A stretch of 34,216 nt of DNA from a bacterium. GTDB lineage: Bacteria; Bacillota_I; Bacilli_A; RF39; UBA660. The first letter of the stretch is position 1. The number at the start of each line of letters is the position of its first letter. The stretch spans positions 1 to 34,216 of the forward strand of contig JAUNFK010000013.1 of the NCBI GenBank assembly GCA_030525085.1. The letters run 5' to 3'. The position numbers and the translations under genes are program-made. Shown here one piece after another: positions 1-16,844 of this stretch. The notes below the pieces were generated by a model. The model saw only the letters and a list, made by a program, of their open reading frames with translations. It was not told the origin of the DNA and made no database searches.

Positions 1-1661
1 TTATTAAAAGTAGTAAAAGAGATTATCCTTATGGTGATTTTGCTTCTTATATTATCGGTTATGCTAAAAAGAATGATAATGATGAGATTGAAGGCGAAAT
101 GGGAATTGAGGGTAAGTATAATAGTAGTTTAAAGGGTGTTAATGGTAAGATTACTTATCAAAAAGATGCTTATGGTTATAGAATTGCTAATACGCCTGCT
201 TATGAGGAAAAGGCTGAATCTGGGGTAGATATTTATCTTACTTTGGATAGTAATATACAGATGTATTTAGAAAATGCAATGGCTACTATTGAAAAAGATG
301 GTGTAGAGTGGGCTTCGATAACGATAGCTGATGCTAAGACAGGTGCAATAGTTGGGTCAGCAACAATACCATCATTTAATCCAAATACTCTTAATATAAC
401 AAATTATAATAGTCAGCTTACAAGTTATACTTATGAGCCAGGAAGTACAATGAAGATTTATTCGTTTATGGCAGCTATAGAAGAGGGTTTATATAAGGGT
501 GATGAAGAGTATATGTCTGGTAGTGTTGTGGTTGATGATTATAAAATTAGTGATTGGAATACTACTGGTTGGGGTAAGATTACTTATGATGTTGGTTTTA
601 CTTATTCTTCAAATGTTGCTGCTGTTAATTTAGCTCAGGCTTTAGGTAAAGAAAAGTTACTTAGTTATTATGAAAAGTTTGGTTTTGGGACTAAGACCGG
701 TATAGAGCTTCCTAATGAGCATAATGGACAAGTTGAAGCTGTATATGAGTCAGAGCTTGCTAGTATTTCTTATGGTCAAGGAATGACAACGACACCAATA
801 CAAAATATTCAAGCACTTACGAGTCTTGCTAATGGCGGAGTTGTTTTAAAACCATATATAATTCAAAAGATAGTTGATACTAATACTGGTAAAACTACTT
901 ATGAAGGAAAAAGAACCGAACTTGGTAGAGCAGTAAGTTCTAGTACAGTTAATAAAATGATAGAATTAATGGATTTGACAGTTAATGGTAGTGATGGACT
1001 TGCGACTGGTAAAAAGTATGCGACTAGTTCAGTAAGACTTATTGGTAAGACTGGTACTGCACAATATTCACTTGGTAATGGAAAATATTCTAGTGGTAAT
1101 TATAATAATATTAGATCTTTTGCGGGAATGTTTCCAAAGGATGATCCAGAGTATGTTATTTATATAAGTGCTAAGAAGTATATGGGTGGAGCTAGTGGTC
1201 TTGCTAATGTTGTTAAGTCAGTTGTTGAGTCAATTGCTAAGTATCGTAATTTAGATACAAGGGAAACTGATAAGGATAATACTAAGATTGTTACACTTAC
1301 AAATTATATAAATAAAGATGTTAATACAGTTAAAGATACGCTTACTAATAAAGGATTAGATGTAGTGGTTATTGGTGATGGTGCGTCTGTTGTTAAGCAG
1401 TATCCATTAAAAGGAGAAAATATTCTTACAGGTAATAAGGTATTTTTGGTTACGGATTATACAAATGTAGTGATGCCTAATTTAACTGGTTGGAATAGTA
1501 CGGATGTTAGAACATTTGCAAATTTGATTAATTTATCTTATACTATGAATGATTATGGAAGAGTTACAGCTCAAAGTATTGCTGAAGGAACTGTAATTGA
1601 TGCAGCGCAAAGCTTAGATGTAACTTTAGGAGGTATATATGGCAAAGAAAAAAGTGGATAA
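1..1661 (+). CDS. Penicillin-binding transpeptidase with two PASTA domains (SpoVD/PBP2 type), 5'-truncated
   Basis: This is the C-terminal part of a class B penicillin-binding protein, a membrane-anchored D,D-transpeptidase that cross-links peptidoglycan. The frame is open from base 3 to the left edge, so the start lies outside the window. The first visible residues (RDYPYGDFASYIIGY) match the end of the PBP dimerisation region. The catalytic set is complete: EPGSTMK carrying the nucleophile Ser (about residue 148 of the fragment), a YSSN motif as the SxN element, and GKTGTAQ as the KTG element. Two PASTA repeats follow, roughly the last 130 residues. Class B PBPs with C-terminal PASTA repeats include SpoVD (spore cortex) and PBP2X/PbpB (division). 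Nearby spore genes make SpoVD possible, but the sequence does not decide. The gene overlaps the next one by 23 bases, which suggests co-transcription. Confidence 0.9.
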   Translation, partial: IKSSKRDYPYGDFASYIIGYAKKNDNDEIEGEMGIEGKYNSSLKGVNGKITYQKDAYGYRIANTPAYEEKAESGVDIYLTLDSNIQMYLENAMATIEKDGVEWASITIADAKTGAIVGSATIPSFNPNTLNITNYNSQLTSYTYEPGSTMKIYSFMAAIEEGLYKGDEEYMSGSVVVDDYKISDWNTTGWGKITYDVGFTYSSNVAAVNLAQALGKEKLLSYYEKFGFGTKTGIELPNEHNGQVEAVYESELASISYGQGMTTTPIQNIQALTSLANGGVVLKPYIIQKIVDTNTGKTTYEGKRTELGRAVSSSTVNKMIELMDLTVNGSDGLATGKKYATSSVRLIGKTGTAQYSLGNGKYSSGNYNNIRSFAGMFPKDDPEYVIYISAKKYMGGASGLANVVKSVVESIAKYRNLDTRETDKDNTKIVTLTNYINKDVNTVKDTLTNKGLDVVVIGDGASVVKQYPLKGENILTGNKVFLVTDYTNVVMPNLTGWNSTDVRTFANLINLSYTMNDYGRVTAQSIAEGTVIDAAQSLDVTLGGIYGKEKSG

Positions 1662-2223
1662 AAAGGATGTAAAGAGTGAAGAAGTTATCAAAGAAGAGAA
1701 TAAAGTATTAAACTTTTTAAAAAAATTCTTTAATTCTTGGCAACCTATTTTAATAGTTTTGATACTTGTTATTGGTGGACTTTTATTATTCATTAATCAC
1801 TTAATGCATGCTACTAAAACATATATGTTTAATGGCGTAAATGATTATGTAAGAATCTTAAACGGAGTCGTTGTTATTGATGATTCACTTGCAATATTTG
1901 AAGGCAGTGATGTTGATTATATTTATGAAAAAGATATTATGGTTACTAAATATAATATTGGATATTATGTAAAAGTTAATGGTAATTATAAGCCTATATC
2001 AGTTGTTAGTGGTGATGATGAAGATAGTTTATCTTTAAGTAAGATTTTAGAAGGCGGAACAACTTTTAATGTTATTGAATCTGTTTCAAATGAGCATTAT
2101 TTTTCTAAAGAAAATGTTGAAGCTTTAGATGAAGGTCTATATTTTATTATGGAATTTACTCCTAAAAAAGGTGATTCTGTTAAGCTTGAAACTAAAATTG
2201 ATATTAGTAATATGAGTAAGTAG
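1639..2223 (+). CDS. Single-pass membrane-anchored protein of unknown function
   Basis: A 194-aa protein I do not recognise. It has a charged Lys/Glu-rich N-terminus (residues 1-32), one transmembrane helix (about 36-57, rich in I, L, V and G), then a soluble region of about 135 residues that should lie outside the cell. The start ATG is preceded by AGGAGG at good spacing and lies inside the end of the PBP gene, so the two are probably translated from one mRNA. Its position after a cell-wall transpeptidase suggests a role at the envelope, but this is inference from context only. A hairpin terminator overlaps its stop codon. Confidence 0.75.
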   Translation: MAKKKVDKKDVKSEEVIKEENKVLNFLKKFFNSWQPILIVLILVIGGLLLFINHLMHATKTYMFNGVNDYVRILNGVVVIDDSLAIFEGSDVDYIYEKDIMVTKYNIGYYVKVNGNYKPISVVSGDDEDSLSLSKILEGGTTFNVIESVSNEHYFSKENVEALDEGLYFIMEFTPKKGDSVKLETKIDISNMSK

Positions 2224-2239
2224 TAATACTTGCTTTTTT
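2216..2239 (+). terminator. Intrinsic terminator overlapping the stop codon
   Basis: A 7-bp stem (2216-2222 with 2227-2233, one G-U pair), a GTAA loop and six Ts. The stem begins in the last codons of the preceding gene and the loop contains the third base of its stop codon. Confidence 0.7.
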
Positions 2240-2274
2240 AATTTATTTCTTGTATTATTATGATAGGTGAGATT

Positions 2275-2826
2275 ATGAAAGAGCATGGTAAAGTAATCTT
2301 TTATATATTAATTGTACTTGTTGTTATTGCAGTTGGTGTTACATTTGCGTTTTTTACTAGTGAAGTAGGTAGTGGAGAAGATGATACTAGTATTACTAGT
2401 AATGCAGGCGTTATGAATATTACTTATAATGGTGGTAGTAAGATAACGGCAACTAAGCTACTTCCATCTGATACAGCGTTTGCTACTAAGGTGTTTACGG
2501 TTACAGGTACTAGTACTACTAAAGATTTAAGTATGAAATATCAAGTCAAATTAGTTGTTGATAATAATACTTTTACAAGCCCAATTAGTTATACTTTAAC
2601 GAGTGTTAATACTGGTAATAATGGTTCAGTAATTGGAACAGTTAATGAAACAAAAATTACTGGTACATCAGCTGTTCTTGGAAGTGGTTCATTTATTAAT
2701 GCTCAAAGTAGAATTCATACTTATACATTAAAACTTTATTATAAAGATACTGGCACCGATCAATCAGCTGATATGGGTGCTAATATTAAAGTACATATAG
2801 AAGTTACGGCAGTTACAGGTGCCTAA
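2275..2826 (+). CDS. TasA/camelysin-like exported protein with SipW-type signal region
   Basis: A 183-aa secreted or surface protein. The N-terminus is a hydrophobic segment (about residues 7-28) ending in GVTFAFFTSE, the pattern of signal peptides recognised by SipW-like signal peptidases, as in TasA and camelysin. The rest is Thr/Ser/Asn-rich and predicted beta-sheet, with the NITYNGGSKI motif typical after the cleavage region, and it fits a single small TasA-like beta-sandwich. The same signal pattern occurs in the proteins at 5553 and 15300. I chose ATG 2275 over ATG 2260 because AGGTGA lies five bases before 2275, while nothing useful precedes 2260. No SipW peptidase gene is in the window. 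Function as a fibre or coat component is inferred from the family only. Confidence 0.7.
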   Translation: MKEHGKVIFYILIVLVVIAVGVTFAFFTSEVGSGEDDTSITSNAGVMNITYNGGSKITATKLLPSDTAFATKVFTVTGTSTTKDLSMKYQVKLVVDNNTFTSPISYTLTSVNTGNNGSVIGTVNETKITGTSAVLGSGSFINAQSRIHTYTLKLYYKDTGTDQSADMGANIKVHIEVTAVTGA

Positions 2827-2836
2827 CTTCTTTTTT
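2811..2836 (+). terminator. Weak intrinsic terminator overlapping the gene end
   Basis: AGTTA (2811-2815) pairs with TAACT (2824-2828) across an 8-base loop, followed by C and then a run of six or more Ts. The stem is short, so this is a modest candidate. Confidence 0.45.
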
Positions 2837-2840
2837 ATTG

Positions 2841-2849
2841 CATAGATTA
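2841..2849 (+). promoter_or_regulatory. Possible sporulation-sigma -10 box upstream of spoVIF
   Basis: CATAGATTA matches the CATAnnnTA form of -10 boxes used by the mother-cell factor sigma-K. It ends 14 bases before the spoVIF start codon, so the leader would be very short. I see no convincing -35 element at the usual spacing (the nearest AC is too close), so this is tentative. Confidence 0.3.
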
Positions 2850-2863
2850 TTATAGGTGATTTT

Positions 2864-3100
2864 ATGAATGATGATCTATTTAAAAAGGTTGAGAAAAAGA
2901 CCAAGGTAAAAAAGGATGATATTATGTCGCTTGCTAAGATGGTAAATGATAATGGACTTAAAGATGAAAAAACTTTAAGACACGTTATTAGTGAACTTAG
3001 TATGATGACTGGTAAAAAAGTAGACAAGAAATTGGAAAATAAAATTATAAATGCAGTTATGGAAGATAAGGTACCAAAAACACTAGATAATATGTTTTAA
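2864..3100 (+). CDS. spoVIF: Stage VI sporulation protein F-like
   Basis: A 78-aa protein that matches my recollection of the SpoVIF/YjcC family. It begins with a Phe-Lys-x-(V/I)-Glu-Lys-Lys-Thr segment, has an acidic 'LxDEKTLRHVI' stretch in the middle, a 'GKKVDKKLENKII' stretch, and ends in a Met-Phe tail after a Leu-Asp pair. In Bacillus subtilis, SpoVIF acts late in spore coat assembly under sigma-K control. The start is set by TATAGGTGATTTTATG. It stands alone between a terminator-like hairpin and a new promoter-like box, consistent with its own late-sporulation promoter. Identification rests on short-protein similarity from memory. Confidence 0.7.
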   Translation: MNDDLFKKVEKKTKVKKDDIMSLAKMVNDNGLKDEKTLRHVISELSMMTGKKVDKKLENKIINAVMEDKVPKTLDNMF

Positions 3101-3136
3101 AAATGTTAAACTATTTATAGAGTAAAGGGTGATAAA

Positions 3137-3892
3137 ATGGCAGCAAATACTGATATGCAAAAATTAAGAGAAGATATATTAAATTATTATATGGATAAAC
3201 TTACTGAAGAAGAGCTTGCTGGTTATAGTTATTTAAGCGATGAAGAAATAATTGGGATAGTAAATAGATTGTGGAAACAGTTTTTAAGTAAAGACTTTGT
3301 TCCTGGCGGTAGTTTTAAATTTTTAGGAACTTTTGTTAGTCCTCTTGAATTACTTGAATGTGATGATATTTTAGATAGAGATGAAGGATATGTTAGACTT
3401 CTATCTAGTGATAAGCTAAATTTTGTTCTTGATGAAATGGATTTAATAACAGAAATAGATTGGTCTAAAGCTCAAAAAGTATTATTACCAATTCATTTTA
3501 AAGATAGTAGCCATTATATTAGGGGAGGTTTAAGTTTTAGAGCTTTGCTTGTAGCTAATGAGGGAGAAGGCGTTATTAGTCCTGCTGTTGATTATGCAGA
3601 AGATAATCCTTTAGGTCTTCCATTTTATAACTTAGATTTAACTGTTTATGATAAAGATAGAAAAGTAGATTATGAAAAGATTGTATTAGATGTCATTTGT
3701 TATTATATTTTACAAGAGCACCATAAGATGGATTTTGCTCTTAGAAAAGTTTTAATTAAGAAGTACCGTAAATTTATTATTAGTACTTATAGCTCGATGA
3801 GAGAGTACTGTACAAGTGATGAAATGCTTAATTTTATGTTTAAACATATAAGAGAGAAAGAAATGCCAATTGAAAAAAATCCTAAATTATGA
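3137..3892 (+). CDS. Conserved hypothetical protein
   Basis: A 251-aa soluble protein with no family I recognise. It has no signal peptide or membrane helix. The N-terminal third is helical and acidic, the middle contains a Gly/Pro-rich segment (SFKFLGTFVSPLE), and the C-terminal 80 residues are again helical and Lys-rich. AGGGTGATAAAATG fixes the start. A promoter-like extended -10 (TGTTAAACT, 3104-3112) lies just upstream. It is followed after 30 bases by a degenerate kinase-like gene, with no terminator between, so they may work together. Confidence 0.65.
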   Translation: MAANTDMQKLREDILNYYMDKLTEEELAGYSYLSDEEIIGIVNRLWKQFLSKDFVPGGSFKFLGTFVSPLELLECDDILDRDEGYVRLLSSDKLNFVLDEMDLITEIDWSKAQKVLLPIHFKDSSHYIRGGLSFRALLVANEGEGVISPAVDYAEDNPLGLPFYNLDLTVYDKDRKVDYEKIVLDVICYYILQEHHKMDFALRKVLIKKYRKFIISTYSSMREYCTSDEMLNFMFKHIREKEMPIEKNPKL

Positions 3893-3900
3893 TAGAATAG

Positions 3901-3917
3901 CCACTGCAAGTGGGGGA
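3901..3917 (+). promoter_or_regulatory. Hairpin abutting the ribosome binding site of the kinase-like gene
   Basis: CCACT (3901-3905) pairs with AGTGG (3909-3913) across a GCA loop. The right arm runs into the GGGGGA that serves as ribosome binding site for the gene starting at 3923. The hairpin could partly mask the site and lower translation. It could also be chance. Confidence 0.3.
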
Positions 3918-3922
3918 TTTAA

Positions 3923-4654
3923 ATGGCAAAACTACAAAGTGGTGTGATTTCACAGCCACAAAAAATGATTACCATACCCAATATATTTGACTTACCTAGT
4001 ATAGGTGCTGGTCATGATGGGTATGTTTTTCATTTTAATGGCAAGGCAATTAAATATTTGAAGTATACACCTAAGATTAGAGAAGAAAAGGGTCTTATGA
4101 CTCCAGAAAAATTTGATGTTCTTAGTGATTTACATTTAAGAAGAATAATTATGCCCGAAGATGCTTTTTATGATGAAAATGAAGTGTTTTCGGCTTATAC
4201 AATGCCTTATGTTCATGATTATAGTAAAGAAACTGGTGCGTTAAGTATTTCTCCAGGTGATTTTTATTATGGTGATTTTTTGGATGCTATAAACGATTTG
4301 GAACTTGATTTTGATGAACTAAGTAGAGCTGGGGTAGTTGCTAATGAGATTAACCGAGGCAGTTTTCTTTATGATTTAGAATTTTTAAAGATGTGTGATG
4401 TTGATAAATACCAAATTGGAGTAAGAAGAGCAACTGAACTAAATAGGAAAATGTTTAACTTTATAATTGCTAAAGTTATTTACTATGAGATTCTAAAAAA
4501 AGGTGCTGATAAGGATAGATTAAAGGCATTAAATAATTGGATAAAAAAATCGTGCCAAAGTTCAGCATTTGTTGACGATTTGAAAGTAAAACTTGAAAAA
4601 GATCCAACAAAGTTAATAAGTGAAGGCGTGGATAGTCTTTCAAAAACAATATAA
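3923..4654 (+). CDS. Degenerate protein-kinase-like protein (probable pseudokinase)
   Basis: A 243-aa soluble protein. Residues 28-47 look like a kinase N-lobe: a glycine-rich loop (GAGHDGYVF) followed by GKAIKYL, where Lys44 sits at the ATP-binding lysine position, and a hinge-like AYTMPYV at 91-97. Where a catalytic loop (HxDxxxxN) is expected, residues 140-151 read ANEINRGSFLYD, so the catalytic Asp would be Glu142 and the metal-binding Asn would be Ser147. CDVD at 158-161 sits where the DFD/DFG motif belongs. This suggests an ATP-binding but weakly catalytic or non-catalytic kinase fold. The assignment is by motif reading only. It is followed by a true APH-type phosphotransferase at 4673. 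The start is set by GGGGGATTTAAATG. Confidence 0.55.
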   Translation: MAKLQSGVISQPQKMITIPNIFDLPSIGAGHDGYVFHFNGKAIKYLKYTPKIREEKGLMTPEKFDVLSDLHLRRIIMPEDAFYDENEVFSAYTMPYVHDYSKETGALSISPGDFYYGDFLDAINDLELDFDELSRAGVVANEINRGSFLYDLEFLKMCDVDKYQIGVRRATELNRKMFNFIIAKVIYYEILKKGADKDRLKALNNWIKKSCQSSAFVDDLKVKLEKDPTKLISEGVDSLSKTI

Positions 4655-4657
4655 TAA

Positions 4658-4666
4658 TGTTATATT
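4658..4666 (+). promoter_or_regulatory. Extended -10 promoter giving a leaderless mRNA
   Basis: TGTTATATT forms a TGn-extended -10 box. Only six bases (4667-4672) separate it from the ATG at 4673 and no ribosome binding site precedes that ATG. The expected transcription start is at or next to the start codon. Confidence 0.45.
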
Positions 4667-4672
4667 AATAGT

Positions 4673-5476
4673 ATGAGAAAAATAGATTTTAAAAATATTA
4701 AATTAATAAGAGTTAATAAATATTACTTTTCTAAAAGTGAAACTATCGAGGCAAGTGTAGTATATAATAATAAAAAAGTGCCTGCAATTATTAAAGTTGA
4801 ACGTTTTTCAAAAAATGATTTAACTAAAGAAATAGATATTTTATCTAGATTAAATGAAGAAGATTTGATAAGAGTACCTAAAATTTATGAAACCGGTAAT
4901 ATTAACGGAAAAAATTATTATGTTTGTGAAAAAATTAAAGGTGATAATTTAAATTTTATAATTAGAAAAAATTTTTATTATAGATATAATTATTTATTTG
5001 AATATGGTAAAAGTTTAGCACTATTGCACTTGATATCATGTGATGGAATGCCTTTAGCAAAGAAAAGAAATATTAATATTATTTCTGATTCTAAGATAAA
5101 TGGGTTTATTCCATCTGAAAGAAAAAATCTTGGAAGCACTTCTTTTGTGCATGGCGATTATCATTTTGGTAATGTTTTGTGGCAGGGCAAGAAAATCAGT
5201 GGAATAATTGATTTTGAATATAGTGGTGTTGGTATTAAAGAAGAAGATATAGCATTTGCACTTGCAATAAAACCTAAGATGATTTTTATGGATAATATTT
5301 TAGATATAGAAGCATTTTTAAATGGTTATAAAAGCGTTTCTAATTATGATGGCGATGCTTTAAAGTATTATTATAAAAGGTATTTGCTTGATGAATATGG
5401 TAAAATTAATGATATAAAGTTTAAAAATAAGGTACTTAAATTGTTGAAACTAGTTGAAAATATTGACGAACTATAG
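4673..5476 (+). CDS. APH/choline-kinase-family phosphotransferase
   Basis: A 267-aa protein of the aminoglycoside/choline phosphotransferase superfamily, which transfers phosphate from ATP to small hydroxylated substrates. The catalytic loop is intact: HGDYHFGN at about residues 160-167 (catalytic Asp162, metal-binding Asn167). It is followed by GIIDFEYSG, where IDFE supplies the second metal ligand. The N-lobe contains AIIKVERF with a candidate ATP-binding Lys, and KIYETG before the hinge. The substrate cannot be told from sequence; family members include sugar, choline and antibiotic kinases, and the location beside a degenerate kinase-like gene gives no clear hint. There is no ribosome binding site before the ATG, in keeping with leaderless transcription. 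Confidence 0.8.
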   Translation: MRKIDFKNIKLIRVNKYYFSKSETIEASVVYNNKKVPAIIKVERFSKNDLTKEIDILSRLNEEDLIRVPKIYETGNINGKNYYVCEKIKGDNLNFIIRKNFYYRYNYLFEYGKSLALLHLISCDGMPLAKKRNINIISDSKINGFIPSERKNLGSTSFVHGDYHFGNVLWQGKKISGIIDFEYSGVGIKEEDIAFALAIKPKMIFMDNILDIEAFLNGYKSVSNYDGDALKYYYKRYLLDEYGKINDIKFKNKVLKLLKLVENIDEL

Positions 5477-5499
5477 AATAAAACTGAACAAATATTAAC

Positions 5500-5527
5500 T
5501 TGACACGGGGGGGGGTTGTTATATAAT
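5500..5527 (+). promoter_or_regulatory. Consensus promoter with a G9 tract in its spacer (candidate phase-variable promoter)
   Basis: TTGACA (5500-5505) and TATAAT (5522-5527) are both perfect sigma-A type boxes. They are separated by 16 bases that include nine consecutive Gs (5507-5515). Slippage by one G would give the optimal 17-base spacer; loss would give 15. It drives the surface protein gene at 5553, whose leader carries TAGGGA as ribosome binding site. Phase variation by spacer-length change is known for homopolymeric promoter tracts in other bacteria; here it is inferred. Confidence 0.8.
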
Positions 5528-5552
5528 TCTTGTAGAAAAGTAGGGATTATAT

Positions 5553-7169
5553 ATGAACCGTGAAGTGAATATAAGTAATAATAAAAAGAGACTCAAATTA
5601 TACTATGGACTGCTTATCACGGTTATATGTGTAATTGGAGTCTCTTTTGCTTGGTTTAGATTATATTTAAGTCAGAGTGAGGATAATATAATGGCGACTA
5701 AAACATGTTTTAGTACGACGCTTACGGAAGATACTTCTGAGATAAAACTTACTGATGCGTTTCCAGTTAAAGATACTGAAGGATTAAAACAAGATGCTTT
5801 TACTTTTACACTTAAAAATAACTGCTCTGGTTATGTTAAAACTTATATAACGATCAATAGTAAATATAGGTTAAATAATGACACAAATTATTTAAAAGAT
5901 GAAAATATAAAGGTTAATATTTCTTCTAATGATAAATTAGATAATTCATCTGTGATATTAAGTAGTCAAAAACTTATAGACATTGATAATGATGAACAAG
6001 GATATCTTATTATTGAAACTGGATTAAATTCAAATGAAGAAAAAAGTTATGATTTAAGAGTGTGGATGGACGGTGATACTACAATCGAGCAAGGGCTTAA
6101 TAAGAGTTGGGCTGGAAAAGTAGTGGTAGTTACTACTGCGTCATATCAGCCTTTAGGAGAAGCTATTTTAGCAAACAATACAATTAGTGAGCCTCTTACT
6201 GTTCCAGGGAAAGCGGTATCATTAGAGAATGAGGCTGTGTTAGCAACTGCAGAAGATGATTATGGAACGAGTTATTATTTTAGAGGCAATGTTCAAAATA
6301 ATTATGTTGAATTTGCAAATATGTGCTGGCGAATAGTGAGAATAACTGGGGATGGTTCGATTAAGCTTGTTTTGTATAATTATAATGCCAATGCATCAAG
6401 TAGTCCATGTAACGATGAGCAAAGTTCGGATACAGCAGCTTTTGCACGGTATGAAGAAGGACAATATACGTCTAATTTTAACTCAGCTGTGGATGACAGT
6501 GCTTATGTTGGGTTTATGTATGGAACAGTAGGTTCTTCTGATTGGACTTCTTCTCATGCCAATAAAAATAAAAGTGTAATTCTTTTAAATTTAGAATCAT
6601 GGTATAAGAAGGATCTTATTTCTTATGAAGATAAACTTTCTGATGTAATATGGTGTAATGATAAGGGGACATTTTCTGTTTTTAGTAATGGTGCTCTATG
6701 TTCTTCTGATACTGATGTTTGTTTTAATTCTTATAATCGGCTTTATGGAGGAAATAGGGAATTGTATGCTGTTCCAAATTTTATATGCCCTAATGATAAT
6801 AATGGTGGTAAGATATCTAAGTTTACTGTAGATGATACTATTAATGGTAATGGTGATTTAACTTATAAAATAGGACTGCTTACTGCAGATGAGGTGGCTT
6901 TTGCTGGATTTCGTGCTTTTGATAATTATGAAGCAAATAACTATTTAGTAGCAAATGCTAATTATTGGTGGTGGACAATGTCTCCTAGAGTTTTTGGCGG
7001 TGATAACGAGAAAAGAGCTAGAGTATGGGATGTTTCTAGTAATGATGGTAGGCTTCTTGGTAATCCTGTAAATGGTTCTTATGGACTTAGACCTTCAATT
7101 GCTTTAGTACCAGAAATAAAAGTTCTTAAAGGCACAGGAACATTTGATGATCCGTACATTGTAAATTGA
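5553..7169 (+). CDS. Large surface protein: SipW-type signal region, beta-rich N-terminal region, lectin-fold-like C-terminal domain
   Basis: A 538-aa exported protein. Residues 13-36 are a hydrophobic signal or anchor ending in GVSFAWF, like SipW-processed proteins. Residues about 40-205 are a Thr/Asn-rich beta region. The C-terminal 330 residues form a domain shared with the protein at 15300. It opens with EDDYGTSYYFRGNVQNNYV and MCWRIVRI, and closes with WWTMSP, GLRPSIAL and the terminal pattern GTGTFDDPYIV. The WxMSP and GLRP elements resemble DUF6273-like domains, which have a C-type-lectin/sulfatase-modifying fold; this link is by motif memory. Several Cys residues in the C-terminal domain could form disulfides. 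Adhesion or ligand binding at the surface is inferred. Expression is probably governed by the G9 promoter. Confidence 0.75.
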   Translation: MNREVNISNNKKRLKLYYGLLITVICVIGVSFAWFRLYLSQSEDNIMATKTCFSTTLTEDTSEIKLTDAFPVKDTEGLKQDAFTFTLKNNCSGYVKTYITINSKYRLNNDTNYLKDENIKVNISSNDKLDNSSVILSSQKLIDIDNDEQGYLIIETGLNSNEEKSYDLRVWMDGDTTIEQGLNKSWAGKVVVVTTASYQPLGEAILANNTISEPLTVPGKAVSLENEAVLATAEDDYGTSYYFRGNVQNNYVEFANMCWRIVRITGDGSIKLVLYNYNANASSSPCNDEQSSDTAAFARYEEGQYTSNFNSAVDDSAYVGFMYGTVGSSDWTSSHANKNKSVILLNLESWYKKDLISYEDKLSDVIWCNDKGTFSVFSNGALCSSDTDVCFNSYNRLYGGNRELYAVPNFICPNDNNGGKISKFTVDDTINGNGDLTYKIGLLTADEVAFAGFRAFDNYEANNYLVANANYWWWTMSPRVFGGDNEKRARVWDVSSNDGRLLGNPVNGSYGLRPSIALVPEIKVLKGTGTFDDPYIVN

Positions 7170-7184
7170 TATTATAATTTATAC

Positions 7185-7213
7185 TTGTTTATTTTATTTA
7201 AATAAGTTAAAAT
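7185..7213 (+). promoter_or_regulatory. Promoter for the anchored protein gene at 7240
   Basis: TTGTTT (7185-7190), 17-base spacer and TAAAAT (7208-7213). No terminator was seen after the upstream gene, so read-through is also possible. Confidence 0.5.
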
Positions 7214-7239
7214 AAAGTTATATAGTAGAAGGAGTGTTT

Positions 7240-8565
7240 ATGAGTAGTGAAGAGTTAAATGGGGGAATGAATAACTTTGGTACTAATGAGAAAAAGAAAA
7301 ACGGTGGTTTAGTATTTTTCATTGTATTATTAGTTATTGCTGTTTTGGGTGGTGCAGGATATTTTGGATATAAGTATTATATGTCTAATAATACACCAAG
7401 AGCTAAGTTTGTTAAGGTAATGAAGAGTTATCTAGAAAAGAATGAATATGCTAATCTTGAAAATGTTAAAAAAACATTTAAAGATGGTTATACAATGAAT
7501 TCTACAAATGCTTTTAAGTTAGATGTAGATGGAGAAAGTTTATTTTCTGGTAATTTTAAATTAAATAGTGTTAAAAATGATAAGGAAAATTATTTTGATC
7601 TTAGTTTATTAGATTCTGATGACAAAGATTTAATTAAAGCAATGGCATATTCTAAAGATGATAAAGTTTATTTAAAATTAGATGAAGTATTTGATAAATT
7701 TTATTACACTAAAATAGATACTAATGTTAATGATTATACAGATGTGTTAGAAACTTTAAAAGAAAGCTATGTAAAGATTATTAAAGATTTCTTTACTGAA
7801 GATAAGTTTACAAGTTCTAAAGAAAATGGAACTGAAAAGATTACAGTTGCTTTAACTGAAAAGGAAGCTGCTGAGTTAACTATTAAATTTTATGAAGAAG
7901 CTAAAAATAATGAAAAGCTTTTAAATTTATTTGCTAGTGAAGATTTACCTATTGATGATGTAAAAGAGTCATTAGATGAACAAATTACTGATTTAAAAGA
8001 TGAAATGAGTACTTATACTGATGATAAGGTAGTTACTTATAATATTTATATTAATAAGAATGTTTTAACAAAACAAGAATTATTAATTGAAGATATGGTT
8101 CTTACTATTACTGGTGAGGCTAGTGGAGATATTACTTTAACTAATGCTGGTAAGACTTATGTAACTGGTAAGTATGATAAGGAAAGTGTTAAGTTAAATA
8201 TTACTGATGATGATACTACTATGGATTTTACAATTAATTATAAGGAAGAATTTAAAGATAATAAGCTTACTGGTACTTATAAGGTTGTTGTTGAAGTGAC
8301 TTCTGATGGCAGCAAGGCTGTAGTAACAGTTGATAGTAGTGTTGATATTACTAAAGAAAATACTATGCCAAGTGTTGATTTAAGTAATGCTAAAGATTTT
8401 AATGATATGACTGATGAAGAAATGTCAAATATTTATACAAAGATTTATCCTTTATTAGAACCTATTATGGGTAGTTATGATAGTGATCTTTATGATGATG
8501 ATGATTATGATTATAACTGTATAGATGGCACTAATTGTGTATATCAAGAGGCTTTAGATTATTAA
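7240..8565 (+). CDS. Membrane-anchored lipoprotein-like/extracellular protein with acidic tail, function unknown
   Basis: A 441-aa protein with a short cytoplasmic tail, one transmembrane helix (about residues 24-46, rich in V, I, L, G and A) and a long, acidic, Lys/Asp/Thr-rich extracellular part. The body has repeated beta-strand patterns (lipid-like or protein-binding barrel folds such as the LolA/LppX type are possible, but not shown). The last 25 residues contain an Asp/Tyr cluster (LYDDDDYDYN) and two Cys residues six residues apart. ATG 7240 was chosen over the in-frame GTG at 7234 because AGAAGGAG ends five bases before 7240 and itself overlaps the GTG. A strong terminator follows. 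Function not recognised. Confidence 0.7.
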   Translation: MSSEELNGGMNNFGTNEKKKNGGLVFFIVLLVIAVLGGAGYFGYKYYMSNNTPRAKFVKVMKSYLEKNEYANLENVKKTFKDGYTMNSTNAFKLDVDGESLFSGNFKLNSVKNDKENYFDLSLLDSDDKDLIKAMAYSKDDKVYLKLDEVFDKFYYTKIDTNVNDYTDVLETLKESYVKIIKDFFTEDKFTSSKENGTEKITVALTEKEAAELTIKFYEEAKNNEKLLNLFASEDLPIDDVKESLDEQITDLKDEMSTYTDDKVVTYNIYINKNVLTKQELLIEDMVLTITGEASGDITLTNAGKTYVTGKYDKESVKLNITDDDTTMDFTINYKEEFKDNKLTGTYKVVVEVTSDGSKAVVTVDSSVDITKENTMPSVDLSNAKDFNDMTDEEMSNIYTKIYPLLEPIMGSYDSDLYDDDDYDYNCIDGTNCVYQEALDY

Positions 8566-8568
8566 TTG

Positions 8569-8600
8569 ACTATAGTTTTATACTATAGTTCTTTTTTTTC
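8569..8600 (+). terminator. Intrinsic terminator
   Basis: A perfect 7-bp stem, ACTATAG (8569-8575) with CTATAGT (8583-8589), a 7-base loop and a T-rich tail. It begins four bases after the stop codon. Confidence 0.85.
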
Positions 8601-8608
8601 TTTTTAAT

Positions 8609-8616
8609 CATAGGAT
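8609..8616 (+). promoter_or_regulatory. Possible sigma-E-like -10 box upstream of spoIVA
   Basis: CATAGGAT resembles the CATACAnT -10 box of the early mother-cell factor sigma-E, which controls spoIVA in Bacillus subtilis. A matching -35 box is not evident at normal spacing, so confidence is low. Confidence 0.25.
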
Positions 8617-8637
8617 TAGATTGAAAGGGAAGGCAAA

Positions 8638-10116
8638 ATGGAAAAGAAAGAGATTATAAGTAGCATCTCTACATGGGGTGGCGGTGAAATTTATCTTGGT
8701 GTTGTAGGTGCTGTTAGAACTGGTAAATCAACGTTTATAAAAAAGGTTATTGAGACACTTGTTATTCCGAATATTGAAGACGAGGCAGAAAGAAAAAGAT
8801 GTTTAGATGAGGTACCTCAGTCTGCTGGTGGAAAAACAATTATGACTACGGAGCCAAAGTTTGTTCCTAGTACGGGAGCTACAATTAAAATAGATGAGTT
8901 TGAGAGTAAGATTAAGCTTATTGATTGTGTTGGTTATGTTATTAAAACTAGTAATGGTTATGAGGATGAACTTGGTAATCCGAGACTTGTTAAAACTCCT
9001 TGGTTTACTGAGGAGATACCTTTTATTGAGGCTGCTGAGATAGGTACAGAGAAAGTTATTAAGGATCATTCTACTATTGGAATAGTTGTTACTACTGATG
9101 GCTCTATTGGGGACTTTACTAGAGGCGAGTATATGGAAGCTGAGGAAAAGGTTGTTACTGAGCTTAAGATGATTAATAAACCATTTATTATAGTACTTAA
9201 TACAACTCATCCTGATGATAATGATACGATTCGTTTAGCTAGTAATATTAGTGATAATTATGGTGTACCAGTTATGCCAATTAATGTTGATAAAATGACT
9301 GAGAAAGATATGTATGATATTTTAAAGAAGGCTTTATATGAGTTCCCAGTTGTTGATGTTGAGATAAATGTTCCTTCTTGGATTCATATTTTACCTGATT
9401 CTAACGAGATTAAAAAACATTATTTAGATAAGATTAGAGAAAGCATGATGAGTATTAGTAAGCTTAAAGATGTAGATAGAATTATAGATTTTTATAAAGA
9501 TAGTGAGTATATTTCAAAAGCTTATATTAGTAATGTAGATACTTCTAGAGGTATTGTTACTCTTAATTTAGATTCTGATGATGGATTATATGAAAGTGTT
9601 CTTAAGGATGTTTTAGGTGGAATTACGATTAATAAGAGTAGTTTACTTAAAGTGTTTATGGAGTATAGTGAGAATAAGGATGAGACTAGTAGTATCAAAA
9701 GCGCACTTAAGATGGCAAAGAGTACTGGGTATGGTATAGTTTATCCAACTCTTAATGATATGAAGTTATCTACGCCAGAGATTATTAAACAAGGTTCTCG
9801 TTATGGAGTTAAATTAAAAGCAGTTGCTTCATCAATTCACTTAATGAAAGTTGATGTTGAAAGTACGTTTGAACCAATTATTGGTACGGAGATGCAGAGT
9901 AAAGAACTTATTAATTATATTATGAAAGATTATGAAACAGATCCATCTAGTATTTGGAAAAGTGAGATATTTGGTAGAAGTTTAGATGTGATTGTTAAAG
10001 AGGGAATTCAAGCTAAGTTATCGATGATGCCAGAAGCTACAAGATATAAATTATCTAATACTGTTACTAAAATAGTAAACAAGGGTTCGAATAATTTAAT
10101 AGCAATTGTATTGTAG
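8638..10116 (+). CDS. spoIVA: Stage IV sporulation protein A, spore coat assembly ATPase
   Basis: A 492-aa protein, the same length as I recall for Bacillus subtilis SpoIVA. SpoIVA is a cytoskeletal ATPase that polymerises on the forespore surface in the mother cell and forms the base layer of the coat. The N-terminus carries the Walker A motif GAVRTGKST (residues 24-32, Lys30). Two family-typical features follow: a QSAGGKTIMTTEPKFVP segment in the nucleotide-binding domain and LIDCVGYV, which corresponds to the Walker B region. The C-terminus ends in a short hydrophobic tail. GAAAGGGAAGG precedes the ATG. The downstream neighbour is HU, the same order as spoIVA-hbs in Bacillus, which supports the call. 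Its presence implies endospore capacity. Confidence 0.96.
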   Translation: MEKKEIISSISTWGGGEIYLGVVGAVRTGKSTFIKKVIETLVIPNIEDEAERKRCLDEVPQSAGGKTIMTTEPKFVPSTGATIKIDEFESKIKLIDCVGYVIKTSNGYEDELGNPRLVKTPWFTEEIPFIEAAEIGTEKVIKDHSTIGIVVTTDGSIGDFTRGEYMEAEEKVVTELKMINKPFIIVLNTTHPDDNDTIRLASNISDNYGVPVMPINVDKMTEKDMYDILKKALYEFPVVDVEINVPSWIHILPDSNEIKKHYLDKIRESMMSISKLKDVDRIIDFYKDSEYISKAYISNVDTSRGIVTLNLDSDDGLYESVLKDVLGGITINKSSLLKVFMEYSENKDETSSIKSALKMAKSTGYGIVYPTLNDMKLSTPEIIKQGSRYGVKLKAVASSIHLMKVDVESTFEPIIGTEMQSKELINYIMKDYETDPSSIWKSEIFGRSLDVIVKEGIQAKLSMMPEATRYKLSNTVTKIVNKGSNNLIAIVL

Positions 10117-10119
10117 TGT

Positions 10120-10158
10120 AAAAAAACTAGATATTTTTAAGAAAAATCTAGTTTTTTT
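10120..10158 (+). terminator. Intrinsic terminator after spoIVA
   Basis: A long inverted repeat: an A-rich left arm with ACTAGAT (from 10120) pairs with ATCTAGT and a T-run (to 10158), with a two-base bulge. The A-rich left arm means it could also work for transcripts on the other strand. Confidence 0.85.
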
Positions 10159-10159
10159 G

Positions 10160-10188
10160 TTGATTTTTACTTATTTTTCTGGTAATTT
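10160..10188 (+). promoter_or_regulatory. Promoter for the HU gene
   Basis: TTGATT (10160-10165), 17-base spacer, TG-extended TAATTT (10183-10188). It lies just downstream of the spoIVA terminator and about 50 bases before the HU start, leaving room for a short leader with GGGAGG. Confidence 0.45.
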
Positions 10189-10236
10189 ATATTTGTAGGG
10201 TAAACACCTATAAATTAGAAATGGGAGGTAATCGTT

Positions 10237-10509
10237 ATGACAAAACAAGAATTAGTAGAATTTATTGCTAATAAGGCTAACTTAACTAAAGCTGATGCTT
10301 TACGTGCTTTAGATGCAATGACTGATGGAATTGTTGAAGGTCTTAAAAAGGAAGGAAAAGTTGCTTTAGTAGGTTTTGGTACTTTCTCAGCAAAAACTCG
10401 TGCTGCAAGAACTGGTATTAATCCATTAACTAAAGAGTCTATTAAGATTCCTGCTAAGACTGTTGCATCATTCAAAGCTGGTAGCAAGTTAAAAGACGCT
10501 TTAAACTAA
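10237..10509 (+). CDS. hup: HU family DNA-binding protein
   Basis: A 90-aa histone-like protein that binds and bends DNA as a dimer and compacts the nucleoid. The full family pattern is visible: the N-terminal MTKQELVEFIA helix, the signature VGFGTFSAKTRAARTGINP around residues 46-64 (the start of the DNA-contacting arm with its Arg residues and intercalating Pro), and the C-terminal FKAGSKLKDALN. GGGAGGTAATCGTT precedes the start. It stands alone, with a promoter upstream and a terminator downstream, and follows spoIVA as hbs does in Bacillus. Confidence 0.98.
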   Translation: MTKQELVEFIANKANLTKADALRALDAMTDGIVEGLKKEGKVALVGFGTFSAKTRAARTGINPLTKESIKIPAKTVASFKAGSKLKDALN

Positions 10510-10522
10510 TTAACGATTATGG

Positions 10523-10549
10523 AAAAGAAGTTTTATGACTTCTTTTTTT
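10523..10549 (+). terminator. Intrinsic terminator after HU
   Basis: A 9-bp stem, AAAAGAAGT (10523-10531) with ACTTCTTTT (10538-10546), a 6-base loop and a T-run. Confidence 0.9.
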
Positions 10550-10559
10550 AATGTTCTTG

Positions 10560-10568
10560 TGTTAAAAT
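10560..10568 (+). promoter_or_regulatory. Extended -10 promoter for recD2 (leaderless)
   Basis: TGTTAAAAT sits seven bases before the recD2 ATG, and there is no ribosome binding site between. The transcription start would fall on or beside the A of ATG. Confidence 0.5.
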
Positions 10569-10575
10569 TGTTTTT

Positions 10576-12765
10576 ATGAGTTATATAAAAGGTAAATATA
10601 AACAATCTATATTTGAATCTGATACTGGCTATAAAGTTGGTCTTTTTAGAGTGCTTGAAACTGATGATGAAGATGTAGGAGTTAATAAAACGATTACTTT
10701 TACTGGATATTTTGGAATGCTTAATAAAGATGATATGTATGTTTTTAATGGTAATGTTATTTATCATGATAGATATGGAATGCAGTTTAATGTAAGTACA
10801 TATGAGAAAGTTGTACCTGAAGGTAAGGATGCAATAATAGATTTTTTAACAAGTTCATTTGTTAAGGGGTGTGGCGAAGTTTTAGCTAGGAAAATATATA
10901 AAACTTTTGGGGATGAAACTCTTACTAAGATAAAGGAAAATAGAGATAATCTTTTGTTAGTTAATGGTATGAGTGAGAAAAAGTGCGATAGTATTTATAA
11001 GTCTGTAGTTAAATATTTTGAGGCTGATAAAGAAATAGTTGCTTTAAAAGAGATGGGATTTACAGTTAAAGAAACTATGGAACTTATGAATAATTATGGT
11101 AAGAGAGTTTTAGAGTTAATTGATAAAAATATTTATATGCTTAGAGATTATATTGATTTTGCTAAATTAGATAATATATTTTTAAATGGTAATGATCCAG
11201 AAGATGACAGAAGAGTAGATGCAGCAATAATAAAGGTTATGAAAGATCTTACATTTTCTTTAGGAGATGTTTATTTAGATAAGATTGAGATAGTGGAAGA
11301 GCTTGGTAGTAAATATAATATCTTTAAAAATGTAGATGCTAATTTAAAAGGGCTTGCTAAAAAAAGAGAAATAATGATTGTTAATGAAGATTATTATTTA
11401 ATGGAAGATTATTTGGATGAGTTAAATAATGGGGTATCAATTGCTCAGCTTATGAGCCTTGATAAAAAGAAGATAAATAAGTTTAATGATTTAATAAAAC
11501 TTACAGAAAATGAACTTGGAATTACATACAATAAAGAGCAAAAGGATGCGATTAAGAGTGCTCTAACAAATAATATTAGTATTATTACTGGTGGTCCTGG
11601 GACAGGTAAAACTACGATTATTAAAGGAATTATTAGACTTTATAGTATTTATAAAAAAATTAGTTATGAGAGTGTTACTAGAGAAGTATGTCTTCTTGCT
11701 CCTACAGGAAGAGCATCTAAAAGGATGAGTGAAACTTGTGGGATTGGAGCTAGTACTATTCATAGATTTTTAAAATGGGATAAGGAAAGTAATACATTTG
11801 CTGTAAATGAACTTAATAAGGTACATTATAATATGTTTATTATAGATGAAACTTCAATGCTTGATAATCATTTGTTATCTTCATTATTTAAGGGAATTGA
11901 TATAAATACAAAGATAATATTTGTTGGTGATGAGTATCAGCTTCCAAGTGTTGGACCAGGATTAATTTTGTCGGATATGATTAATGCTGGAGTTCCTCAT
12001 ATAAAGTTAGATACTATTTATAGGCAGAGTGAGAACTCTTATATACCAGTGCTTGCTAAAGATATTAAGGATGTTAATGTTACTGAGGATTATTTAGATA
12101 AAAAAGACGATTATAATTTTATATCTTGTGATTCTAAAGAGATTAAAAGTGTTTTAATACAAATAGTAGAAAAGATGCAAGAAAAGAAAATTGATTTAAG
12201 TAACTTACAAGTTTTAGCTCCTATGTATAAGGGTGAAAATGGAATTGATAATTTAAATATTGTTTTACAGGATTTGATAAATCCGAAAGATGAGAGTAAG
12301 GATGAGTTAAGAGTTGGACCAATTACATATAGAGTTGGCGATAAGATTCTTAATTTAGTAAATGATATTGATAATAATATTTATAATGGTGATATCGGGT
12401 ATATTAAGAGTATAGATGTTAATTCTAAGAAAGAACCGATAATAGTTGATTATTATAATAATGAAGTTAGTTATAAGAGAGAGAATTTTAATCAAATAAC
12501 TCATGCTTATGCGATAAGTATTCATAAGAGTCAAGGTTCTGAATTTATGCATGTTATTATGCCAATTACTAAGGGGTATTCAAGAATGCTTTATAATAAG
12601 CTTCTTTATACTGGAGTTTCTAGAGCTAAGAAAAGTTTGGTATTACTTGGTGATAAGGATGCGTTTATAAAATGTGTTGATAATAGTTATAGCTTAGTTC
12701 GTAAGACAAATTTAAAAAGTAAGATATTGAATAATTTAAAGATAAATACGCAAGATAATAAGTAG
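10576..12765 (+). CDS. recD2: RecD2-type ATP-dependent DNA helicase
   Basis: A 729-aa superfamily 1B helicase that unwinds DNA 5' to 3' and helps genome stability; RecD2 proteins act without RecBC. The layout fits RecD2: an N-terminal OB-like domain (about 1-80), helix-hairpin-helix region (about 90-190), a winged-helix-like part, then the helicase core from about residue 320. Walker A is GGPGTGKTT (339-347). Walker B is FIIDETSM. Later motifs include FVGDEYQLPSVGPG (motif III), AYAISIHKSQGSEF (motif V) and YTGVSRAKKSL (motif VI). No ribosome binding site precedes the ATG. The gene ends two bases before the ribosome binding site of the next small gene. Confidence 0.95.
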   Translation: MSYIKGKYKQSIFESDTGYKVGLFRVLETDDEDVGVNKTITFTGYFGMLNKDDMYVFNGNVIYHDRYGMQFNVSTYEKVVPEGKDAIIDFLTSSFVKGCGEVLARKIYKTFGDETLTKIKENRDNLLLVNGMSEKKCDSIYKSVVKYFEADKEIVALKEMGFTVKETMELMNNYGKRVLELIDKNIYMLRDYIDFAKLDNIFLNGNDPEDDRRVDAAIIKVMKDLTFSLGDVYLDKIEIVEELGSKYNIFKNVDANLKGLAKKREIMIVNEDYYLMEDYLDELNNGVSIAQLMSLDKKKINKFNDLIKLTENELGITYNKEQKDAIKSALTNNISIITGGPGTGKTTIIKGIIRLYSIYKKISYESVTREVCLLAPTGRASKRMSETCGIGASTIHRFLKWDKESNTFAVNELNKVHYNMFIIDETSMLDNHLLSSLFKGIDINTKIIFVGDEYQLPSVGPGLILSDMINAGVPHIKLDTIYRQSENSYIPVLAKDIKDVNVTEDYLDKKDDYNFISCDSKEIKSVLIQIVEKMQEKKIDLSNLQVLAPMYKGENGIDNLNIVLQDLINPKDESKDELRVGPITYRVGDKILNLVNDIDNNIYNGDIGYIKSIDVNSKKEPIIVDYYNNEVSYKRENFNQITHAYAISIHKSQGSEFMHVIMPITKGYSRMLYNKLLYTGVSRAKKSLVLLGDKDAFIKCVDNSYSLVRKTNLKSKILNNLKINTQDNK

Positions 12766-12777
12766 GAGAGTGTATTT

Positions 12778-12921
12778 ATGAAAGATTTTTTTAGTTTTAT
12801 GATGGGAGCTATGTTTGGTGCAGCAGTAATGTTAGGCGCTAGTGAGCTTTCTAAAAATAAAGAAGTAGTTAAAAAGAAAGTTAATGATTTAATTGATGAT
12901 ACTTCTAAATTAGTAGGTTAA
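12778..12921 (+). CDS. 47-aa small protein with a YtxH-like hydrophobic segment
   Basis: A short gene with a good ribosome binding site (TAGGAGAG) and a terminator overlapping its stop. The protein has an N-terminal hydrophobic, Gly/Ala/Met-rich segment (about residues 4-22, MMGAMFGAAVMLGA) and a Lys-rich helical tail. This resembles the N-terminus of YtxH-type general-stress proteins, which have one membrane helix followed by a charged helix. It lies 12 bases after recD2 and is probably co-transcribed with it. Function unknown. Confidence 0.7.
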   Translation: MKDFFSFMMGAMFGAAVMLGASELSKNKEVVKKKVNDLIDDTSKLVG

Positions 12922-12935
12922 GTCCTACTTTTTTT
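12912..12935 (+). terminator. Intrinsic terminator overlapping a stop codon
   Basis: AGTAGG (12912-12917) with CCTACT (12924-12929), a 6-base loop containing the stop codon, then seven Ts. Confidence 0.85.
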
Positions 12936-12969
12936 GTATAATAATTTTTTTATTATAAATAATAATAAT

Positions 12970-14818: not shown

Positions 14819-14880
14819 TAGTATCACCATATTTATAATATCAAACTCTTAATTAAATTAAAAGTGAAAATTTTGGCAAT

Positions 14881-14905
14881 AAAAAAACTTAGATGTTAAT
14901 CCAAG
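14881..14905 (-). terminator. Intrinsic terminator of rpsT
   Basis: On the minus strand a 7-bp stem with one G-U pair (CTTGGAT with ATCTAAG), a 4-base loop and seven Ts, beginning one base after the rpsT stop. Confidence 0.85.
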
Positions 14906-14906
14906 C

Positions 14907-15170
14907 TTATATCATTTCTTTAACTTTTTTATTTAATCTTGCTTTTTGTCTATCACAAGTATTCTTTTTAATTAATCCTTTACTAGAGCATTTATCTAAA
15001 TCAGCCATAGTAGTTTTTAATTGAGCTTGAGCTGCTTCTAGATTTTTTTCTTTAACTGCTTTTTCTAGTTTTTTCATTCCGTTCTTTACTTTAGAGGTAT
15101 AAGAAGTATTACTTGCTGTTTTAATTTTGTCAGTTTTAACACTTTTTTTAGCGCTCTTAATGTTAGCCAT
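14907..15170 (-). CDS. rpsT: 30S ribosomal protein S20
   Basis: An 87-aa, Lys-rich, all-helical protein that binds 16S rRNA early in small-subunit assembly. The start MANIKSAKKSVKT and the later SKGLIKKNTCDRQKARLNKK are typical of S20. The 87-aa length is normal. A strong ribosome binding site (AAGGAAGGAGATATTT) precedes ATG, a good promoter lies upstream and a terminator follows, so it is a single-gene unit. It sits between the transglutaminase-like gene on the same strand and the surface-protein operon, which it faces away from. Confidence 0.97.
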   Translation of the reverse strand: MANIKSAKKSVKTDKIKTASNTSYTSKVKNGMKKLEKAVKEKNLEAAQAQLKTTMADLDKCSSKGLIKKNTCDRQKARLNKKVKEMI

Positions 15171-15200
15171 AAATATCTCCTTCCTTAAATTACAACACTG

Positions 15201-15229: not shown

Positions 15230-15238
15230 GTTAATATA

Positions 15239-15267
15239 TTGATAAATACTAAATATTTTGATATTAT
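15239..15267 (+). promoter_or_regulatory. Promoter of the second surface-protein gene
   Basis: TTGATA (15239-15244), 17-base spacer, TG-extended TATTAT (15262-15267). The spacer contains no G tract, unlike the promoter of the paralogue at 5500-5527, so this copy should be expressed without phase variation. Confidence 0.65.
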
Positions 15268-15299
15268 TTTAATAGTAATAAAGAATAAGGAGTCTTACT

Positions 15300-16844
15300 A
15301 TGTATATAAATAAACTAATTAAAAAACAGGTAATGCTTATTTTAGCTACTTTTGTTCTTGTTGGAACTCTTGCTGTAACTGCTTCTTTTGCTCTTTTTGA
15401 AGAAACAAAAAGTAATGCCACTGATCAGAAAATGGTAATAGGTGATTTAAATATTACTTTTACTGGTGGCTCTGCTATTAGTATTACGGATATTAATCCA
15501 ATGACTGATACAGTTGCGGGAAATCAAACAAATAATATATATACTTGGACTATAACAAATAGCGGTACTGTTCCTTATCAATTTAAAGTGAAAGTAGTTA
15601 ATGATTCAAACTACACAACAAATTTATTACCACATCAGTTTATTAGATATTCTCTTGATGGTGGTACTGCTAGTTCTTTAGGTTCTGGGCAAACTGATTA
15701 TGAGATTGCTAGTGGAGTAATTGATGCTGGTGCAACTAATACATATAAATTAAGATTATGGGTTGCAGATGCTTCAACTTATAAGTTACCAAATTCTGCA
15801 TTAGGGCAGGAAATACATTTAAAGATTTCTGTAGAAGGTAAAGCTGGCGACGGTTGGTTACCAAGTAATTTAAAAGATAGAATATTAGCTTCTAATGATG
15901 TTGAAACGCCACTTACTACGCCTGGCAGTGAAGTCTCTTCTGCAACCGAAGCACTTCTAGCAAGCACAGAAGATGATTATGGAACAAGTTATTATTTTAG
16001 AGGTAATGTTCAAAATAATTATGTACAGTTTGCTAACATGTGCTGGCGAATAGTAAGAATTTTAGGTGATGGTTCTATAAAATTAGTACTTCATAACAAT
16101 AACACATCAAACGTTACCAATCCATGTTCTTCAGCAAACAATAGTGATTATGCTGCATATTCTGGAAGTTCTTCTTTTAACTCAAAATATGATGATCCGG
16201 CTTATATAGGATTCATGTATGGGACTCCAGGCTCAGGTGATTATGCAAGTACACATGCTAATATAAACAAAAGCACTATCTTAACATATCTAGAAACTTG
16301 GTATAAGGATAACTTGATACTATATACCGATAAAATTGCAGATACTATATGGTGCAACGATAAAAGTACTACAAGTGGGTTGGGTTACGGAACAAATAGT
16401 TCATACTATGCAGGGTTCAATAGAATATCTAATACTAATCCTAGTTTAGTATGTCCAAACGATAACGATGGTGGAAAACTATCAAAATATACAGTAGATG
16501 ATAAAATCAATGGAAACGGTTTATTAGATTATAAAATAGGACTTTTAACTGCTGATGAAGCGGCTTTTGCAGGATTTGTATTCAATGTACCTAATGGAAA
16601 TGAAATTTATTTACGTGAAAATGCTGCGGATGGATATTTTACCATGACTCCAAGTAATTTTGAAGATGGTGAACCAGCAGATGGGAAGGGTTATACTATT
16701 ATTTGGATTACCAATTATATTCAAACTAGGCTGTACAGTATGAGTGGTGTTTATAGCAATAGAGTAAGGCCAGCAATATCACTTAAGTCAACTGTTACTG
16801 TGACTGGAACTGGGACTAGTGAAGATCCTTATGTGGTGCAATAA
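15300..16844 (+). CDS. Surface protein, paralogue of the protein at 5553 (TasA-like N-terminal, lectin-fold-like C-terminal domain)
   Basis: A 514-aa exported protein. The N-terminal hydrophobic segment (about residues 10-32) ends in TASFALFEET, and is followed by GDLNITFTGGSAI, the pattern of SipW-processed TasA-like proteins. Residues about 35-180 would be a TasA-like beta domain. The C-terminal 320 residues share the domain of the 5553 protein: EDDYGTSYYFRGNVQNNYV, MCWRIVRI, DYKIGLLTADEAAFAGF, TMTPSNF, VRPAISL and the end GTGTSEDPYVV. The N-terminal beta regions of the two paralogues differ clearly. AAGGAG sets the start. There is no terminator after the gene, so the genes from 16873 to 19392 may be in the same operon. 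An adhesin or ligand-binding role is inferred. Confidence 0.78.
   Translation: MYINKLIKKQVMLILATFVLVGTLAVTASFALFEETKSNATDQKMVIGDLNITFTGGSAISITDINPMTDTVAGNQTNNIYTWTITNSGTVPYQFKVKVVNDSNYTTNLLPHQFIRYSLDGGTASSLGSGQTDYEIASGVIDAGATNTYKLRLWVADASTYKLPNSALGQEIHLKISVEGKAGDGWLPSNLKDRILASNDVETPLTTPGSEVSSATEALLASTEDDYGTSYYFRGNVQNNYVQFANMCWRIVRILGDGSIKLVLHNNNTSNVTNPCSSANNSDYAAYSGSSSFNSKYDDPAYIGFMYGTPGSGDYASTHANINKSTILTYLETWYKDNLILYTDKIADTIWCNDKSTTSGLGYGTNSSYYAGFNRISNTNPSLVCPNDNDGGKLSKYTVDDKINGNGLLDYKIGLLTADEAAFAGFVFNVPNGNEIYLRENAADGYFTMTPSNFEDGEPADGKGYTIIWITNYIQTRLYSMSGVYSNRVRPAISLKSTVTVTGTGTSEDPYVVQ

Follow-up and report, generated by a model that had tools for sequence, protein, structure and literature searches.

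The promoter analyzed here raises two questions: (i) whether nine consecutive Gs lie between its -35 and -10 boxes by chance and (ii) what such a run does ahead of a gene for an exported protein. The promoter lies in a 34,216-nt stretch of DNA (the window) from an RF39-lineage genome (G000), a 942-kb MAG of 85% completeness. The features of the window are as follows, all on the + strand:

5488..5565, +, promoter-leader module found at seven G000 genes, AATATTAAC-TTGACAC-Gn-TTGTTATATAAT-nnnTATAGAAnGATAGGGATTATAT-ATGAACC
5500..5505, +, -35 box TTGACA (direct read and promoter scan)
5506, +, C between the -35 box and the G9 tract (direct read)
5507..5515, +, G9 tract in the promoter spacer, the proposed slippage site
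5516..5521, +, TTGTTA, the remainder of the spacer between G9 and the -10 box
5522..5527, +, -10 box TATAAT, 16 bp from the -35 box
5542..5546, +, candidate weak Shine-Dalgarno-like AGGGA, 6 nt 5' of the ATG
5553..7169, +, gene for a predicted exported protein of 538 aa
7234..8565, +, gene for a single-TM protein, 3' of the 538-aa gene
15239..15267, +, promoter of a second family member, TTGATA-17-TATTAT, without a G tract (an internal contrast)
15300..16844, +, second gene of the exported family in the window

Direct reading bears out what an earlier, sequence-only reading of this DNA had reported: TTGACA and TATAAT are full consensus and 16 bp apart, and a tenth G would indeed give a 17-bp spacer. 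They form the sole 12/12 match to a sigma-70 promoter on either strand in positions 1-20000 of the window. The upstream gene stops at 5476, 23 nt before the -35 box, and the ATG of the 538-aa gene is at 5553, 25 nt past the -10 box. The same reading had placed nine Gs at 5507-5515 and no other run longer than five, which the counts confirm. The window has a GC content of 28.8% and contains 23 G runs of length 4, three of length 5, none of length 6-8, and the single run of nine, for which the expected number is 0.0013 (second-order composition, tract excluded). The placement of the G9 tract is non-random.

G000 as a whole contains just five runs of at least seven Gs, and all of them are inside the -35/-10 spacers of window-gene paralogues; the other four are at C8:39564, C10:8989, C10:39282, and C14:5747. 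The gene family numbers about 24 members in G000. Conservation of the promoter-leader module reaches the start codon (AATATTAAC-TTGACAC-Gn-TTGTTATATAAT-nnn-TATAGAAnGATAGGGATTATAT-ATG), and the -35 of the homologous promoters is conserved as TTGACA, TAGACA, or TGGACA. Four of these promoters have an uninterrupted tract and a 16-bp spacer, which they keep despite C/T and G/A base changes; the spacer is 17 bp in the three whose tract has been interrupted (G7AGG) or lost. The sequence-only reading had described a single candidate phase-variable promoter. It was right about a non-random tract linked to an exported protein, but the true unit is a set that spans the genome and the taxonomic family.

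The pattern TTGACA-N(1-4)-G7-N(2-12)-TATA was detected in 38 of 386 genomes of the same taxonomic family, with ~184 matches (somewhat inflated by overlapping gap variants) versus one for the reversed pattern. Within 15 of these genomes, 186 of the 255 runs of at least eight Gs follow a TTGAC, with 0-5 nt plus one non-G base in between; no run did so in the reversed control. A single genome, G083, carries 40 poly-G promoters. With a slightly stricter pattern, the architecture was found in none of 146 genomes from elsewhere in the class, outside this family. The sister species G001 has at least six near-identical copies of the module, with 6-9 Gs per tract and, in six genes, conservation as far as the ATG; G003 has further poly-G modules. 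Among the matches listed in named genomes, which in part are contigs of family f1 (e.g., G245:C39, which is CANQHJ010000039), most are from uncultured Bacilli living in the guts of rabbits and ruminants; the rest come from Clostridia, Faecalibacterium, Ca. Ancillula, Treponema ruminis, and further taxa. Between genera the lead, the trail, and the -35 variants differ, and only the G run is kept. Faecalibacterium MAGs (L173, L190, L188, L213, L200, L248) have a repeated module of their own, CGGGCCTTGACACC-G8..10-TATGCTATAATGCC, whose downstream gene, where present in the sequence, encodes a lipoprotein.

The poly-G gene of the window is absent before spoIVA in sister species G001, where other genes occupy the stretch (L372, G001:C6:34000-38700). 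One encodes a small exported protein of TasA-like type and another a protein of 171 aa that resembles a ToxN-type toxin. The corresponding stretch of the window contains a kinase-like gene and the poly-G-driven gene. Because G001 carries other genes there, the slot before spoIVA is itself variable.

Spacer lengths were compared for 201 poly-G promoters with unambiguous boxes, recovered with search patterns that do not disfavor 17. Their distribution is bimodal, with 86 spacers of 15-16 bp, 59 of 19-20 bp, and 18 of 17 bp. Among ordinary, exact non-poly-G promoters at these loci, 17 bp is the most common length (16 of 30, versus 18 of 201 poly-G promoters; Fisher p 5e-8, a statistic that treats related loci as independent). 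After shuffling of lead, tract, and trail lengths, 60 +/- 6 spacers of 17-18 bp are expected; the observed 36 is below all 5000 shuffles. Spacers scatter by 1-3 bases within one genome and tend to fall on one side of the optimum, the short side in G000, G001, G083, and G362 and the long side in G061, G082, G100, and G237. The window promoter, at 16 bp with G9, is one base below 17. The avoidance of 17 bp is most naturally taken to mean that the assembled (majority) allele is mostly one with non-optimal spacing.

Tract lengths were also compared between copies. Near-identical modules within one genome differ in tract length in 11 of 32 pairs, where each pair consists of paralogues with one assembled allele each, not of cells of a population. 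Tracts of G9, G10, and G11 occur at three adjacent loci in G100, and near-identical modules in G079 have G8, G9, and G10. Flanks that are 95-96% identical surround G9 and G10 in G061, and G8 and G10 in Ca. Faecalibacterium gallistercoris. In some genomes the tract is nearly uniform, with almost all G9 in G362 and mostly G8 in G172.

Several poly-G promoters are ~100-150 nt from contig ends. A repeat of ~140 nt occurs in G061 at contig ends, ~30 nt 5' of three poly-G promoters. A partly similar segment lies ahead of a poly-G promoter in G114, and G001 and G367 share a different segment, CCCTCT..TTGTCTACTTT..AGTTTACCACT. The loci of this set of segments are L280:1-140, the ends of L281, L283, and L345, and the starts of L301 and L303. 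The repeats beside poly-G promoters may be mobile-element ends. Contig ends had been considered as proof of mixed alleles, an argument that we dropped, as a repeated upstream segment accounts for at least G061 and G172. A phage origin of the module was also rejected: viral_contigs contains no copy of the exact module, and only five of its contigs match the general pattern.

Potentially addressing the second question, we identified a strong bias in the products of poly-G promoters. Across the set, 152 of 192 distinct downstream proteins have an N-terminal hydrophobic export/TM segment, versus 229 of the 796 remaining ORFs at these loci (p 1e-37, with related loci again treated as independent); the call was made by a simple hydropathy rule. 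A SipW-type motif is present in many poly-G-driven proteins, and 8 of 84 match PF12389 (camelysin/TasA). Other Pfam domains encoded behind poly-G promoters are BspA-type LRR (4), pilin N-methylation, Big_2, and further surface-protein domains. Products without an export signal include UDP-galactopyranose mutase (twice) and an IspD-like cytidylyltransferase, and suggest that surface glycans may be switched as well as proteins. The loci of these enzymes are L299 (G314), L294 (G237), and L298 (G314). The scanned set includes two matches to RpoD-type sigma factors. Separately, L140 (G304:C15) has two poly-G promoters on one contig, ahead of genes of 444 aa and 473 aa. The RpoD-type matches are probably these two genes, which suggests a candidate repeat-controlled sigma factor.

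The protein encoded by the window gene begins with a hydrophobic segment that includes a SipW-type motif (GVSFAWF), followed by a beta-sandwich and a C-terminal domain. The predicted N-terminal export/TM segment agrees with the earlier claim of an exported product. Both the signal motif and the beta-sandwich resemble those of SipW-dependent (TasA/camelysin) secreted fiber proteins. The whole-protein model (pLDDT 86.7) has an N-terminal helix and the beta-sandwich, for which structural matches are weak and include pilus subunits, among them an archaeal bundling pilus. The fold of the C-terminal domain (window 6150-7166, model pLDDT 90.6) resembles DUF6273 C-type-lectin-like domains, and the protein has no Pfam or NCBIfam match, including TIGR04088, PF12389, and the DUF6273 profile; TIGR04088 is matched by one of 45 genus members. 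Against models of phage DUF6273 proteins the domain gave E values of 2.5e-5 to 1e-3 and TM-scores of ~0.3. It also matched an IgA peptidase of Thomasclavelia ramosa (Foldseek E 1e-5, TM ~0.34) without a sequence match, and many C-type lectins, all at E > 0.1 and below significance. As the TM-scores are low, we treat the DUF6273, IgA peptidase, and lectin resemblances as leads. An earlier guess of a lectin-like fold gains moderate support from the DUF6273/IgA-peptidase-like fold and the many weak lectin matches, and none from sequence profiles. The single-TM gene at 7234-8565 could be co-transcribed with 5553-7169, as no terminator-like site is predicted between them; weak promoter-like sites are found ahead of it, at 7166-7226.

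The position of the G9 tract, its non-randomness, its recurrence, the class of gene that follows, the avoidance of 17 bp, and the length differences between copies are all observed. On this basis we consider it likely that the tract is a contingency (phase-variation) element of the slipped-strand, transcriptional type known from porA and tp0126. We infer slippage within the population, an effect on transcription, and display at the surface. Specifically, DNA polymerase would slip in the G run, with gain or loss of single Gs, and the -35/-10 distance would change from 16 bp to 17 (optimal) or to 15 or less. The altered spacing would then raise or lower sigma-A transcription of the exported, adhesin-like protein (5553-7169). 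Because all five poly-G promoters of G000 precede one gene family, the subset on display would vary from cell to cell within a clone. Elsewhere in the taxonomic family, tens of exported proteins, some of them lipoproteins or pilins, and a few surface-glycan enzymes would be controlled by promoters built the same way. Counting against phase variation, a 16-bp spacer can be moderately active, and transcription running on from the upstream gene, which ends at 5476, could blunt the switch.

The four G000 copies that stay at 16 bp while C/T and G/A positions change, and the near-uniform tracts of G362 and G172, also fit a static, selected spacer. The G-rich segment would then be stiff and A-form-like, or a regulator site, giving constant promoter strength or co-regulation of the family, and length changes would be rare and without a switching role. 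We regard this as unlikely. Near-identical copies differ by 1-2 Gs, poly-G spacers are far broader in length than those of ordinary promoters and avoid 17 bp, and the G run alone is kept while lead, trail, and -35 vary between genera. Moreover, the three G000 homologues without an intact tract have 17 bp. It is much less probable that the promoter travels as a cassette, copied along with the family by duplication or gene conversion, and that the G tract is a neutral relic of this copying. Such copying is consistent with conservation of the module to the ATG in seven G000 and six G001 genes and with the repeated upstream segments found next to certain poly-G promoters where contigs end in G061 and G172, but a neutral G run would decay fast in 29% GC DNA, unrelated genes in other genera share the architecture with different flanks, and exported products are enriched behind these promoters. 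Poly-G artifacts do occur in two-color sequencing, but chance or a sequencing or assembly error such as poly-G misreads has a negligible probability, because so few G9 runs are expected and the reversed-pattern control is near zero, and because the placement is identical in dozens of independent MAGs, the finished Treponema ruminis genome, and an isolate assembly.

For phase variation through a promoter homopolymer, the kind of mechanism is known. In T. pallidum, a poly-G tract between the -35 and -10 of tp0126 controls transcription via spacer length, with an optimum of 17 bp; tprL tracts of 7-11 Gs are mixed within isolates, and the genome contains many poly-G loci (PMC7864442). In N. meningitidis, porA, which encodes a surface protein, has a poly-G tract between -35 and -10 that likewise controls transcription; single-base changes in it shift the spacer around 17 bp (as described in PMC7864442 and PMC3899988). 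Like porA, the promoters described here have a homopolymer of at least ~7 between the hexamers, a spacer near 17 bp, and a predicted exported product. However, porA encodes a Gram-negative outer-membrane porin from a single promoter, whereas here the module is multi-copy and occurs in a Gram-positive lineage, and switching is proven for porA but predicted from sequence here. The poly-C promoter of N. meningitidis opc stands beside porA as the closest known system. The promoters also resemble those of tp0126 and tprL in their poly-G tracts and many loci per genome; unlike those genes, which encode spirochete outer-membrane proteins, the genes here belong to no shared family with them, and length-dependent reporter activity has been shown in Treponema only. 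Mycoplasma vlp and vlhA lipoprotein promoters have poly-A in the spacer or GAA repeats upstream. They share with our system a small AT-rich genome, a multigene surface family, and repeat-length promoters, but differ in the repeat (poly-A or GAA versus poly-G) and in the proteins.

A search of the open-access literature returned no report of homopolymer phase variation in the RF39-type lineage, in keeping with the suggestion of the sequence-only reading that this may be new in a gut Firmicute. In the papers searched, its scale and its occurrence in these Bacilli appear undescribed. More broadly, the evidence is evenly balanced for the view that a family of uncultured, small-genome gut Bacilli carries a promoter poly-G "phasome" of up to ~40 promoters in a 1.2-Mb genome. 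Most of these promoters would be parked 1-3 bp off the 17-bp optimum, so that in most cells the bulk of these loci would be weakly expressed or silent, with a single slippage enough to switch on one surface protein. The presence of similar promoters in Clostridia, Faecalibacterium, and Ancillula would suggest repeated origin in gut bacteria.

Phase variation in gut Firmicutes is known mainly via DNA inversion. If our reading is true, a simple-repeat promoter switch acting on tens of surface genes per genome would be a second, sequence-readable route. Tract lengths could be read from existing deep metagenomes, so that the set of surface proteins switched on in a given host, and under a given immune or phage pressure, would become testable. 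Such a switch would also account for the retention of ~24 copies of one exported-protein family in so small a genome.
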